Source of the DNA: Algoriphagus machipongonensis
GTDB lineage: Bacteria > Bacteroidota > Bacteroidia > Cytophagales > Cyclobacteriaceae
Assembly (NCBI RefSeq): GCF_000166275.1
Contig: NZ_CM001023.1
Location: 1,392,501-1,456,500, forward strand
Direction: 5' to 3'
DNA length: 64,000 nt
The translations under genes and the position numbers were made by a program. The notes under the pieces were generated by a model. It saw only the letters and a list, made by a program, of their open reading frames with translations, was not told the origin of the DNA and did not search any database. Shown piece by piece: positions 3,889 to 7,374 of this stretch (the first letter of the stretch is position 1; every line of letters begins with the position of its first letter).

Positions 3889-4323
3889 TTAAATTTTTAA
3901 GATGTTTTCACGGATAACTAGTGAATTATAGTCTGGATCTCTAAAAAAGAAGAACTTATCTTCATAGCCTAAATCTGATGTATTTGAAAGTATATAGCTC
4001 CCCTCGATTTCATCAATTACCACTTGATTTTTTTGAAAGAGTGTCAGAGTTGCTTCTATATCCTTCACAAGAAAACTTGGCACTGTTCCATTTGAAGGTA
4101 GTGGGTTAAAGGGTGCATCAATATCTTTATATAAACCTAAAATTATTTTGCTTCCATCTTCACATGCAAGGTTCATTTGTAGATAAGGTATTTCATCTGG
4201 GGCCTTTATTATCGAGTATTTAGGGTCCAATTGAAACCCAAGGATCTTTTCGTAAAAATCCCTGGATTTCGAAAGATCACTTACCGATAATTTTGTAATT
4301 AATTGGTCGGTGATAAACTTCAT
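3889..4323 (-). CDS. VOC-fold (glyoxalase/bleomycin-resistance type) protein
   Basis: 144 residues, normal for a single-chain VOC protein with two beta-alpha-beta-beta-beta modules. The opening ITKLSVSDLSKSRDFYEKIL followed by GFQLDP is the classic first module, and the tail FFFRDPDYNSLVIRE is the family's closing strand with the 'DP..N' turn. VOC proteins bind a divalent metal and act as isomerases, dioxygenases or drug-binding proteins; the substrate cannot be read from the sequence. It is the last gene of a three-gene unit: the VioB C-half homologue ends 3 bases before it, so the two are surely co-transcribed. That suggests, without proof, that it acts on or sequesters a product of the VioB-like pair. 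Confidence 0.8.
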   Translation of the reverse strand: MKFITDQLITKLSVSDLSKSRDFYEKILGFQLDPKYSIIKAPDEIPYLQMNLACEDGSKIILGLYKDIDAPFNPLPSNGTVPSFLVKDIEATLTLFQKNQVVIDEIEGSYILSNTSDLGYEDKFFFFRDPDYNSLVIRENILKI

Positions 4324-4326
4324 GGA

Positions 4327-5421
4327 TTAAGAATTTTGGTTCAAAATGGAGATTTCCATACTCGACAAATCCTCATTGGTGACAAACTCAAAGCTTGGCC
4401 CAGCCACATAAGTTGGGTCATTTGGATAAGGGGTTGCAAGTAATTTTCCCGCATAAAGCCTGAGAGAAAACATTAATCCCATAGCTTCATTTATTTGTTC
4501 CGTTTGCCCATTAAATGTCAAATGAAGACTATTCAGAAGACAGGTGTAGGTGAAGTTAAAAAGCTTGCTGTATTGATATGCTAAAGAGTCCTTCGGCAAA
4601 TCAGCCATTTTTGGGTTAGGGTACATATTTGGGATACCATCCTCCTTTAAAGGGATGGGATCTCCTGAATAGGAATAACCTGATTGTGTATTAGGATCTT
4701 TTACCAATGTTTTTCCATTATAGATTTCTTCAAATCGATAATAGTGAGCTGGTTCTCCCTCTTCGGTATCTATTGGATCGACAAATGGATCTGTAGAGGT
4801 CCCTTCTCCTTGATCTACTATGATATCTATTGCATTGAATGCAGAGGTTTCGTCATGGATAGGAAATAATAATTTTTCAGGGAAAAACTTAGCATAGGTA
4901 AGTTGATGAGATGACTTTCCTGTAAAAATTGTCTTTCCATTTTTTTTAGCTTCTCCTTCAAGGGAAGAAATTTTTTCTTTAATCTTTTGATAAAATTGCC
5001 CTATGGTCATAGAGTCTTCAACCTTGCTCAAAGTTTCTATGTGGATTGGGCTTTCTGGTTCCTCAATGGACATAAAAACATTTTTGATTAGGGGAAGTGA
5101 AAATTTCTCCAAAGGAACTATCAGTCCTGTATCGACTCCACCGGGTAGATGTCCGGGATATTTTGGGACAAAATCTGGCGTATTCAGTGCTGGAGATCCT
5201 CCTACTGCATTTAAGAGATTACAAGCGATAGAGAGGTGCAGCATTTCCTCGCCAACAACCGAACCTATAAGATTTGAGATCTGATCATTCCCAGTATTTG
5301 CTAAAGTAAAATTAGCGGTCAAGTAAGGAGGGATTGTAGAATGTTCCAGCTCAATAGCTGTTTGTATCGCTGATCGAAGATCTTCGATGGTATCTATTTG
5401 TATGTTTTTTAGAAAAATCAT
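4327..5421 (-). CDS. Ferritin-like protein, homologue of the C-terminal half of VioB/RebD
   Basis: 364 residues. Residues 12-75 form a ferritin-like helical pair: AIELEHSTIPPYL (Glu24/Glu26 and His27) and VVGEEMLHLSIACNLLNAVG, whose E-x-x-H pair is Glu59/His62. From memory of VioB, its C-terminal half has the same elements (a 'DLELSVMLQYLYAAYS'-like helix and a 'EIAHEEMIHYLVVNNLLMALG'-like helix). VioB and RebD couple two imine forms of indolepyruvate in violacein and rebeccamycin synthesis and belong to the Pfam 'Ferritin-like' group. Here the domain is a separate protein, and the homologue of the N-terminal half is the gene just upstream (3-base gap). No amino-acid oxidase lies nearby, so the substrate is unknown. 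Confidence 0.8.
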   Translation of the reverse strand: MIFLKNIQIDTIEDLRSAIQTAIELEHSTIPPYLTANFTLANTGNDQISNLIGSVVGEEMLHLSIACNLLNAVGGSPALNTPDFVPKYPGHLPGGVDTGLIVPLEKFSLPLIKNVFMSIEEPESPIHIETLSKVEDSMTIGQFYQKIKEKISSLEGEAKKNGKTIFTGKSSHQLTYAKFFPEKLLFPIHDETSAFNAIDIIVDQGEGTSTDPFVDPIDTEEGEPAHYYRFEEIYNGKTLVKDPNTQSGYSYSGDPIPLKEDGIPNMYPNPKMADLPKDSLAYQYSKLFNFTYTCLLNSLHLTFNGQTEQINEAMGLMFSLRLYAGKLLATPYPNDPTYVAGPSFEFVTNEDLSSMEISILNQNS

Positions 5422-5424
5422 GTC

Positions 5425-7107
5425 TTATAGTTTTTTAAAAGTGATGGAATCTTTTGTTCCTTTTTCAGCTAAAACTGAATTTAAATAGTTGATAATCATT
5501 GCTGATTTATCTCTTGAGAGATCTCTAGTGGCGGGCATGTAGTTTGGGTCTTCCCTGTCTTTACTAAAAACAAATTTTAGGATTTCCGCATTTTGATCTA
5601 CCACTTTTTGGTCAGCTAGATTAAAAATTCCTTTTGACATCAAAGGATATAAATTGGAGTACTGCAACATGATCGGGTAAATATCCTCCCAAGATGGATT
5701 GTTTATTTTTTCTTGATCTACCGAATCAAAAACAAGGAAACTTATAAAGTTATTTGGGTTGCAATCTGAAAAGTAGCCATCGCTAAAGTTATAGGCAATA
5801 CCATAAACCTGACCATCGATGTACTTTCTTGGGTTACCAGGGTCATTTGCTTTCACTTTTATGGTTGCTTTTCCATCAGTATCGGAAAGCGTGGTGTTGG
5901 GGAATTCTAGAGTGGTTTTAGGAACCCCGACGACAGGTGGAGTAGGGCCAAAATTACTGGCAATAAGTCTGAAATCTATGCTTTTGTTTGGGATGGGTTT
6001 CCCGAGATGTGTACAATAAAATTCTAGTTCACAATCTTCGTTCGGATTTAAGTAAAACACAAATTTATCCGCACATACGTAATTGATAGTCTCTGAAAGA
6101 ATTACCTCTTGTTCAGCATTTAAGATGACAATAGGATGGTTTTCTACTAAGGAGGTTTTGTCGTTTAATGGCAGAACTGAAATTCCAGCTTTTCCATCAT
6201 ACCAATCAGAGGCAGAAATATCGATTTCTCCTATTGAAACTAAATCGCTTGAACCATCCACTCCTTTATCCACCATCAGTTGAAGTGGCATGGAGTGTTT
6301 CAAAGTGCCATTTGAATTGATAGGGAAAGAATTAGCAAGATCAATAGTGACTTGATTTAGTTTTTTATCCAAGATGGCATTTGCATAATTAATTGTTGAG
6401 GACTGAGGAGCTAGTGGCCTTCCTATGGTGAAGAATGTAGGGTCGTTTTCAAAGCAAGGGCCGATAGAACCCACAATTCTACCGATGGTAAAAGCGGGAG
6501 ATGTTTTGTCCATATCATATAAATCAGTTGTAAACTGTATGGACAGATTCTCTTTGCTTACAGAATACAACTCTTTCAAATACCTAGAACTGCAATTGTC
6601 TATGTTCCAAGAAATGTTTTTTAGAGTCGATTGGAAAATCGCAGCTGCTCGGGTATCTCCGCCTAAATCTGGAGCTCTTGCCATCCAAATATTAGTAAAG
6701 GATGAAACCGTGTAGTCTGAATTGATGATTTCCTTTTCTCCATCCACCAAGCGAACCACCAAGCCCCAAAGTGCAGATACCATTTGTTGCTGTGGATCTA
6801 AATCCACGATTTTACCTGCTACTTTTTTGTTAGAGTCCATTATTGTCATCCCGATGACTGGATCTTCTTTTGGGTCCGATGTGCTTGTGCCGTCAAGGTA
6901 AGTGACACTTTTTACCTTACAGCTTAAAAAGCGCCAACTTCCAGTCCCTTCTGGGTTCCACCATCCGTTTGTTGCACCGCTTCCCCATTCTTGAAAATTG
7001 GGTTGAAAGGTGTCGTTGTTAAAATGTGTCGGATCATTGTTGACCGTAGAAGGATCTGCCTGAAACTGCCCCGAAAAAGTCAATCGGGGAGAATTTAAAT
7101 AAGACAT
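5425..7107 (-). CDS. Homologue of the N-terminal half of VioB
   Basis: 560 residues, no signal peptide, so cytoplasmic. The beginning (YLNSPRLTFSGQFQADPSTV) matches in pattern the VioB start 'ILDFPRIHFRG...NAPTANRDP', and the end (YPLMSKGIFNLADQKVVDQN, then DPNYMPATRDLSRDK) matches the VioB segment 'YPFMSDKVFSLADRCKCETYA...KSYYMPSTRELSAPK', both compared from memory. In VioB this roughly 600-residue region precedes the ferritin-like half in one chain; here it ends where the second gene begins. The middle (about residues 330-430) reads as an immunoglobulin-like beta domain. It is the first gene of the operon with the ferritin-like and VOC genes. Its separate function is unknown; I infer that it pairs with the next gene product. 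Confidence 0.75.
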   Translation of the reverse strand: MSYLNSPRLTFSGQFQADPSTVNNDPTHFNNDTFQPNFQEWGSGATNGWWNPEGTGSWRFLSCKVKSVTYLDGTSTSDPKEDPVIGMTIMDSNKKVAGKIVDLDPQQQMVSALWGLVVRLVDGEKEIINSDYTVSSFTNIWMARAPDLGGDTRAAAIFQSTLKNISWNIDNCSSRYLKELYSVSKENLSIQFTTDLYDMDKTSPAFTIGRIVGSIGPCFENDPTFFTIGRPLAPQSSTINYANAILDKKLNQVTIDLANSFPINSNGTLKHSMPLQLMVDKGVDGSSDLVSIGEIDISASDWYDGKAGISVLPLNDKTSLVENHPIVILNAEQEVILSETINYVCADKFVFYLNPNEDCELEFYCTHLGKPIPNKSIDFRLIASNFGPTPPVVGVPKTTLEFPNTTLSDTDGKATIKVKANDPGNPRKYIDGQVYGIAYNFSDGYFSDCNPNNFISFLVFDSVDQEKINNPSWEDIYPIMLQYSNLYPLMSKGIFNLADQKVVDQNAEILKFVFSKDREDPNYMPATRDLSRDKSAMIINYLNSVLAEKGTKDSITFKKL

Positions 7108-7374
7108 AAAAGATTAATTTAAAAGTGATACTAAATGAAAAATCTTATAGAAAGTTAGCCTAAAAACCTTGAAAAAACTAAGTTTTACTTCTTGTTAAAG
7201 CGTCTAAATAGTTAGAAAACAATGAGTTGCTTTTTTTATGTTATATAAACAGAATTTAAGTCTTCAAATGGAAATTGTAATGAATTTCATTTTCTAGTAG
7301 AAGTGAAAGAAACCAATAAATTTATTAGAAAAGGCAACAATTAATCTGACCATTAAAATCTAATGGGAGGAATA

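Follow-up and report, generated by a model that had tools for sequence, protein, structure and literature searches.

In the synthesis of the purple pigment violacein, two tryptophan-derived molecules are joined by the enzyme VioB. According to PMC9705886, VioB contains haem b, has catalase activity, and dimerises indolepyruvate imine; the chromopyrrolic acid (CPA) synthases, which couple two imines, are described as haem proteins as well (PMC10851217). The ebo operon is distributed over many phyla, algal plastids included, and its product has been an open question since the first description (PMC5133447). We have analyzed a stretch of 64,000 nucleotides from Algoriphagus machipongonensis (RefSeq assembly GCF_000166275.1, contig NZ_CM001023.1, positions 1,392,501 to 1,456,500; called the window). 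It harbors two adjacent genes encoding N560 and F364, homologues of the N-terminal and C-terminal half of VioB, followed by a gene for a VOC-fold protein (Table 1). A preliminary description of this DNA had proposed a VioB-like enzyme encoded by two genes, N half before C half. This observation was confirmed, and its interpretation as a two-component form of VioB was partly supported: the two-gene, VioB-like enzyme stands, but it appears to belong to a distant sister family rather than being VioB in two pieces. Judged by sequence, the pair (N-F) represents a real and widespread two-subunit sister family of VioB.

The VioB model TIGR04492 matched N560 at residues 479-550 (model positions 515-587; 8.5e-9, 33.8 bits) and F364 at residues 54-212 (model positions 672-817; 1.1e-4, 20.2 bits), i.e., in the same order as in VioB. 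A protein of 1005 aa encoded in the Pseudoduganella violacea genome (1855.6 bits to TIGR04492) served as reference VioB. Using hhalign, the N-family profile aligned to its residues 1-593 with a probability of 97.3% and the F-family profile to residues 604-948 with a probability of 96.7%; hence, the gene boundary corresponds to VioB residue ~600. It follows the YMPxTRDLS segment near the C-terminal end of N560 and precedes the ferritin-like half, which is where the preliminary description had placed it. Hidden Markov models (HMMs) of the split families detected the reference VioB with E-values of 1.2e-11 (N) and 2.8e-5 (F) for a set size of 1e6; none of the 300 shuffled VioBs in the set exceeded 1.3 bits among the top 12 matches of each HMM. 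The N HMM domains covered only residues 1-26, 230-328, and 507-592 of VioB; both ends of N560 are strongly similar to VioB and the regions ~30-180 and ~280-480 weakly so. Homology of the middle part from end to end is suggested by the profile alignment and by the order of the parts.

Examination of conserved residues revealed that E26, E59, H62, E120, E206, and H226 of F364 do not vary in any of the 78 F rows, and two VioB rows and one RebD-like row have the same residues there. Similarly, R8, N23, D102, Q433, Y487, M490, M524, and R528 of N560 are conserved without exception in 79 rows, and both VioB rows match at these positions. The ferritin-like fold leads us to infer two bound irons at the F residues. 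AlphaFold2 predicted a single folded unit for a natural N-F fusion (pTM 0.88), with an N part comprising a beta-rich region (~8-340), an Ig-like domain (~340-462), and a helical tail (465-549) carrying YMPATRDLS. The N-F pair is predicted to provide a VioB-type enzyme as two individual soluble proteins, and this should be useful because a sequence search of the PDB returned no VioB structure.

Comparison with VioB and RebD/StaD, represented by two VioB and two Anabaena RebD-like open reading frames (ORFs) in place of RebD or StaD themselves, showed that N-F shares with them the order of an N half and a ferritin-like half, the junction, the start motif MSxLxxPRxxFxG, the YMPxTRxLS segment, and the metal-ligand positions. 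Unlike the single polypeptide of ~1000 aa typical for the VioB/RebD superfamily, N and F are separate genes, or a fusion evolved separately in one clade; they are far diverged, no VioA was found, and the genes stand in a VOC and ebo context. As both halves are VioB homologues with matching metal-ligand positions, the locus might encode a true VioB or CPA synthase, merely split, that serves a pigment of the violacein or indolocarbazole type. We consider this very improbable: the match scores of 33.8 and 20.2 bits are far below the curated cut-off of 1250 bits for TIGR04492, no VioA match was obtained in the genome, and Pseudoduganella violacea carries a genuine VioB as well as an ebo-linked N-F set, so the two are not the same thing. 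The VioA search covered the genome itself and seven window-type genomes and recovered the positives G670 and G671; RebO/StaO-type oxidases were not searched. The preliminary description had noted no VioA, VioE, or other pigment genes in the window; this now holds genome-wide for VioA, and for VioE and other pigment genes no search was made beyond the ORF list of the window. In the F tree, very long branches (3.22 and 1.73) lead towards VioB. N560-F364 is not VioB itself; it forms a sister family at a large distance from VioB/RebD.

The three genes are located on the minus strand in the order N560, F364, VOC gene, with gaps of 3 bp between them; both coordinates and the Pfam match bear out the earlier remark that a VOC gene lies 3 bases downstream of F364. 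F364 matched PF12902 Ferritin-like with 5e-76 and 255.8 bits (gathering cut-off 22.3) and the VOC protein matched PF00903 with 30 bits (gathering cut-off 20.6), whereas N560 gave no Pfam family at E ≤ 1. The gap upstream of N560 showed no match to the Bacteroidota promoter pattern TTTG/TANNTTTG. A defence system was discarded, as the three proteins had no PADLOC match at E ≤ 0.01, and chance ORFs were discarded in view of conservation across many phyla. Plain iron storage is disfavored because the locus also has an N subunit and a VOC partner. Another close known system is the PF12902 ferritin-like protein 3hl1 (CC_0557 of Caulobacter), for which no N partner has been considered. A second, stand-alone PF12902 protein of a different subgroup is encoded in the same genome (L002:766-2460, C1 ~574-576 kb; 564 aa, 142.7 bits).

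Table 1. Positions of the N-F-VOC genes and the preceding gap within the window.
Feature	Position	Strand	Length	Description
N560	5425..7107	minus	560 aa	VioB N-half homologue
F364	4327..5421	minus	364 aa	PF12902 ferritin-like subunit, VioB C-half homologue
VOC-fold protein	3889..4323	minus	144 aa	PF00903; recurrent partner
Gap upstream of N560	7108..7374	minus	267 bp	Presumed promoter region

A protein search yielded at least 1876 relatives of N560 among 8000 scored candidates; among the 120 listed, all those named by their source were called hypothetical or uncharacterised. Loci were counted in the best 80 of 238 confirmed stretches from a scan that took one genome per species. They originate from many phyla, and F is a separate gene after N in 63 of them (including 10 whose F, in an over-long open frame, immediately follows N), fused to N in 15, and absent in two. 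N and F thus occur together in 78/80 loci, and the two others run into a contig end (L096, with 92 bp remaining; L086, with 945 bp). Hence neither of the refuting conditions named in the preliminary description applies: N560 does have profile similarity to the N half of VioB, and the two proteins share their distribution. The two-gene form is the majority form of a large family and no rarity of this locus. All 15 fused forms constitute one clade (support 99 in the F tree and 100 in the N tree), which nests among split forms far from VioB; therefore, either this fusion and that of VioB arose separately or the split did. The four VioB/RebD-like rows do not fix the root of the tree.

Several relatives showed additional features. 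The Pseudoduganella violacea genome (L116 and L189) harbors a tandem N-F-N-F beside ebo genes in addition to its genuine VioB. Anabaena azotica (G682) encodes two VioB/RebD-like frames of 1139 and 1155 aa (L191, L200; E 5e-182 and 6e-176 to TIGR04492) together with an ebo-linked N-F pair (L078). N-F pairs of Chromobacterium (L102, L104, L111, L112) adjoin a berberine-type FAD oxidase, a possible imine supplier. A lipoprotein-like protein of ~337 aa with no Pfam family is encoded on the same strand near N in 11/80 loci (e.g., L121:8991-10004).

A VOC- or ABM-like ORF was found in 33/80 loci, one of them weak (26 bits) and distant (L110) and one apparently ABM alone (L076); in 27 of the 33 it is located within 300 bp on the same strand. 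The VOC partner recurs outside the genus of the window: it is single in Bacteroidota, double (263 aa) in Photobacterium, and of ABM-VOC type in several Pseudomonadota and Actinomycetota. Furthermore, F and VOC are fused as a single ORF of 507 aa in two Algoriphagus genomes, and VOC forms the C-terminus of EboF in two Flavobacteriaceae genomes. By eye, the usual His/Glu metal-ligand positions of VOC proteins look hydrophobic in the Bacteroidota rows.

The main context of the pair, the ebo operon, lies outside the window, and none of the genes eboA-F was found in the listed stretch around N560-F364-VOC. Downstream of N-F in G145 and in Aureibacter (G081) are six genes assigned to ebo by Pfam and order, namely EboA-like, TatD, UbiA, dehydroquinate synthase-like, EboE-like (no Pfam), and type I phosphodiesterase; naming follows the descriptions in PMC6282210 and PMC9235831. 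In 25/80 loci, from Bacteroidota, Cyanobacteria, and Pseudomonadota, the fetched stretch (up to 10 kb on each side) contains three or more ebo genes; on the N tree, this label requires a minimum of 12 changes. EboE was detected in all eight window-type genomes and in 24/48 N-F genomes with no adjacent ebo (26/50 with two positive controls included). Altogether, ebo is present in 54 of 78 N-F genomes (L086 and L134 left out of the count): 25 with adjacent genes, the latter 24, and five Algoriphagus loci (L057-L061). The sampled background frequency of EboE was 2-8% (24/296 Bacteroidota, 7/293 in the order of G669, and 15/369 in the class of G670, the centre included). In the genome of the window, eboA-F is located at C1:1316833-1323444. 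Its eboA (L153:4834-5729, C1:1316833-1317728) consists of two overlapping ORFs of 121 and 193 aa, whereas relatives have one ORF of ~298 aa; the break is either a frameshift or a sequencing error.

The association of N-F with VOC and ebo is well supported. It is unreported in the open-licence literature we searched: the main texts, supplements excluded, of PMC5133447, PMC6092422, PMC6282210, PMC9235831, and PMC8879130 mention neither ferritin nor VioB nor violacein. The published six-gene definition (PMC5133447, PMC9235831) does not include N-F and VOC, and most ebo loci have no N-F. The described ebo operons, including the EDB cluster of P. fluorescens NZI7 and the scytonemin satellite of Nostoc, correspond to the eboA-F operon that adjoins N-F in a part of the loci.

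We propose that N560 and F364 form two subunits of one oxidative enzyme representing its own sister family in the VioB/RebD superfamily. F364 would carry a ferritin-like metal site of carboxylate and histidine ligands, which is probably di-iron and may or may not be accompanied by haem, and N560 would supply a beta-rich scaffold and a helical arm packing on F364. The substrate that the enzyme oxidises, and perhaps couples, may be an aromatic imine or enamine; our likeliest guess is an indolic compound. The VOC protein might then bind or rearrange the unstable product in a metal-free manner. In this it would resemble VioE, likewise a small, presumably cofactor-free protein acting after the coupling enzyme, but VioE is reported to have a lipoprotein-carrier fold (PMC9705886) in place of the VOC fold. 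Finally, the product may enter the ebo pathway with the prenyltransferase EboC, the sugar-phosphate cyclase-like EboD, and others. Bicyclic aromatic substrates would fit, because an Algoriphagus EboC farnesylates 8-hydroxyquinoline-2-carboxylic acid and quinaldic acid (PMC9235831). The direct evidence comprises homology, co-occurrence, common metal-ligand positions, and links by operon and fusion. Taken as a whole, a two-subunit oxidative enzyme acting with VOC and feeding the ebo pathway is the reading we favor, at slightly better than even confidence. A pair of known mechanistic type with its VOC fusions would offer a concrete entry point to the ebo product; the link suggests a class of substrate and names genes to be deleted together.

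A number of observations weigh against this proposal or limit the evidence for it. N560-F364-VOC and ebo are 73 kb apart in the genome of the window, both proteins stay far below the TIGR04492 cut-off, and the structure model is that of a fused relative, not of the N560 and F364 pair. VioA was not found as imine supplier, other oxidases and transaminases not having been searched. The N tree is mirrored by the F tree with r 0.85, a value that speaks for the pair but, like the co-occurrence in genomes, is uncorrected for shared ancestry. EboE was not matched in 24/48 N-F genomes with no adjacent ebo, many of them metagenome-assembled. The three background samples rested on two single queries and one alignment. 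All five genomes of the Bacteroidota sample with any N match have EboE, but a strong N match was present in only 2/296, the three others being weak and partial. Conversely, 43 ebo loci from the three samples, some ending at contig edges and excluding the EboE-positive G499 and G557 and the centre G670, yielded one with N-F, two with a divergent N-like protein and no F, and 40 with neither; ebo is therefore a general module and N-F an optional partner.

The same figures would suit a free-standing redox or peroxide-handling protein with an incidental ebo neighborhood. VioB and RebD show catalase activity, 55/80 loci have no adjacent ebo, half of the 48 such genomes tested gave no EboE match, and most of the sampled ebo loci are devoid of N. 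This explanation is nevertheless improbable, as a rare operon adjoining N-F so often, with that many changes on the tree, is unlikely by chance, and VOC fusions to both F and EboF are hard to explain by chance.

The chemistry may also differ from that of VioB because the sequence is so distant. A two-subunit di-iron or haem oxygenase or peroxygenase could act on a single substrate, giving, e.g., an indole-glyoxylamide or an N-oxygenated product, and both the long F-tree branches and the existence of PF12902 proteins with no N, as in G205, would agree with this. However, N is kept with F in every locus where the contig allows a check, and to our knowledge the sole function of an N-type subunit is coupling of the VioB/RebD type; we regard a single-substrate enzyme as rather unlikely. 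The F364 relative of G205 (L159:8560-12150; 404 aa, no EboE/EboF match) adjoins a 644-aa oxidoreductase, of FAD type by eye, and a 141-aa protein.

Additionally, N-like proteins are encoded in two (L221 and L222) of the seven ebo loci from the Pseudomonadales-type sample; they are 602, 814, and 678 aa long and adjoin proteins of 416-436 aa in which the CxxCH motif occurs once. L221 is a Pseudomonas according to named matches at 93% identity. Aureibacter also has a pair of N-like and CxxCH proteins, with no ebo beside it. The Pseudomonas EDB cluster, also treated in the review PMC9655573, is described in PMC6282210 as a full ebo cluster with other ORFs carrying signal peptides. It is tempting to speculate that the N-like proteins are the oxidising part of EDB. 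A more detailed version of our proposal, which we hold to be conceivable if doubtful, sees N-F-VOC as the front end of ebo: a VioB-type radical coupler would form a reactive, probably indolic dimer, VOC would hold or rearrange it, and ebo would prenylate or export it, the N scaffold pairing with a di-iron F or, in Pseudomonas-type ebo, with an exported CxxCH protein. If this is true, the nematode-repellent EDB cluster would share the chemistry of N-F-VOC.

Algoriphagus-type genomes also harbor N-half paralogues of ~600 aa that lack F, at nine loci forming a conserved set (L036-L044). Their neighbors encode a protein of 312-520 aa with no Pfam family (tested in L036) and a protein of ~1700 aa with kinase, AAA, GAF, and guanylate-cyclase parts.
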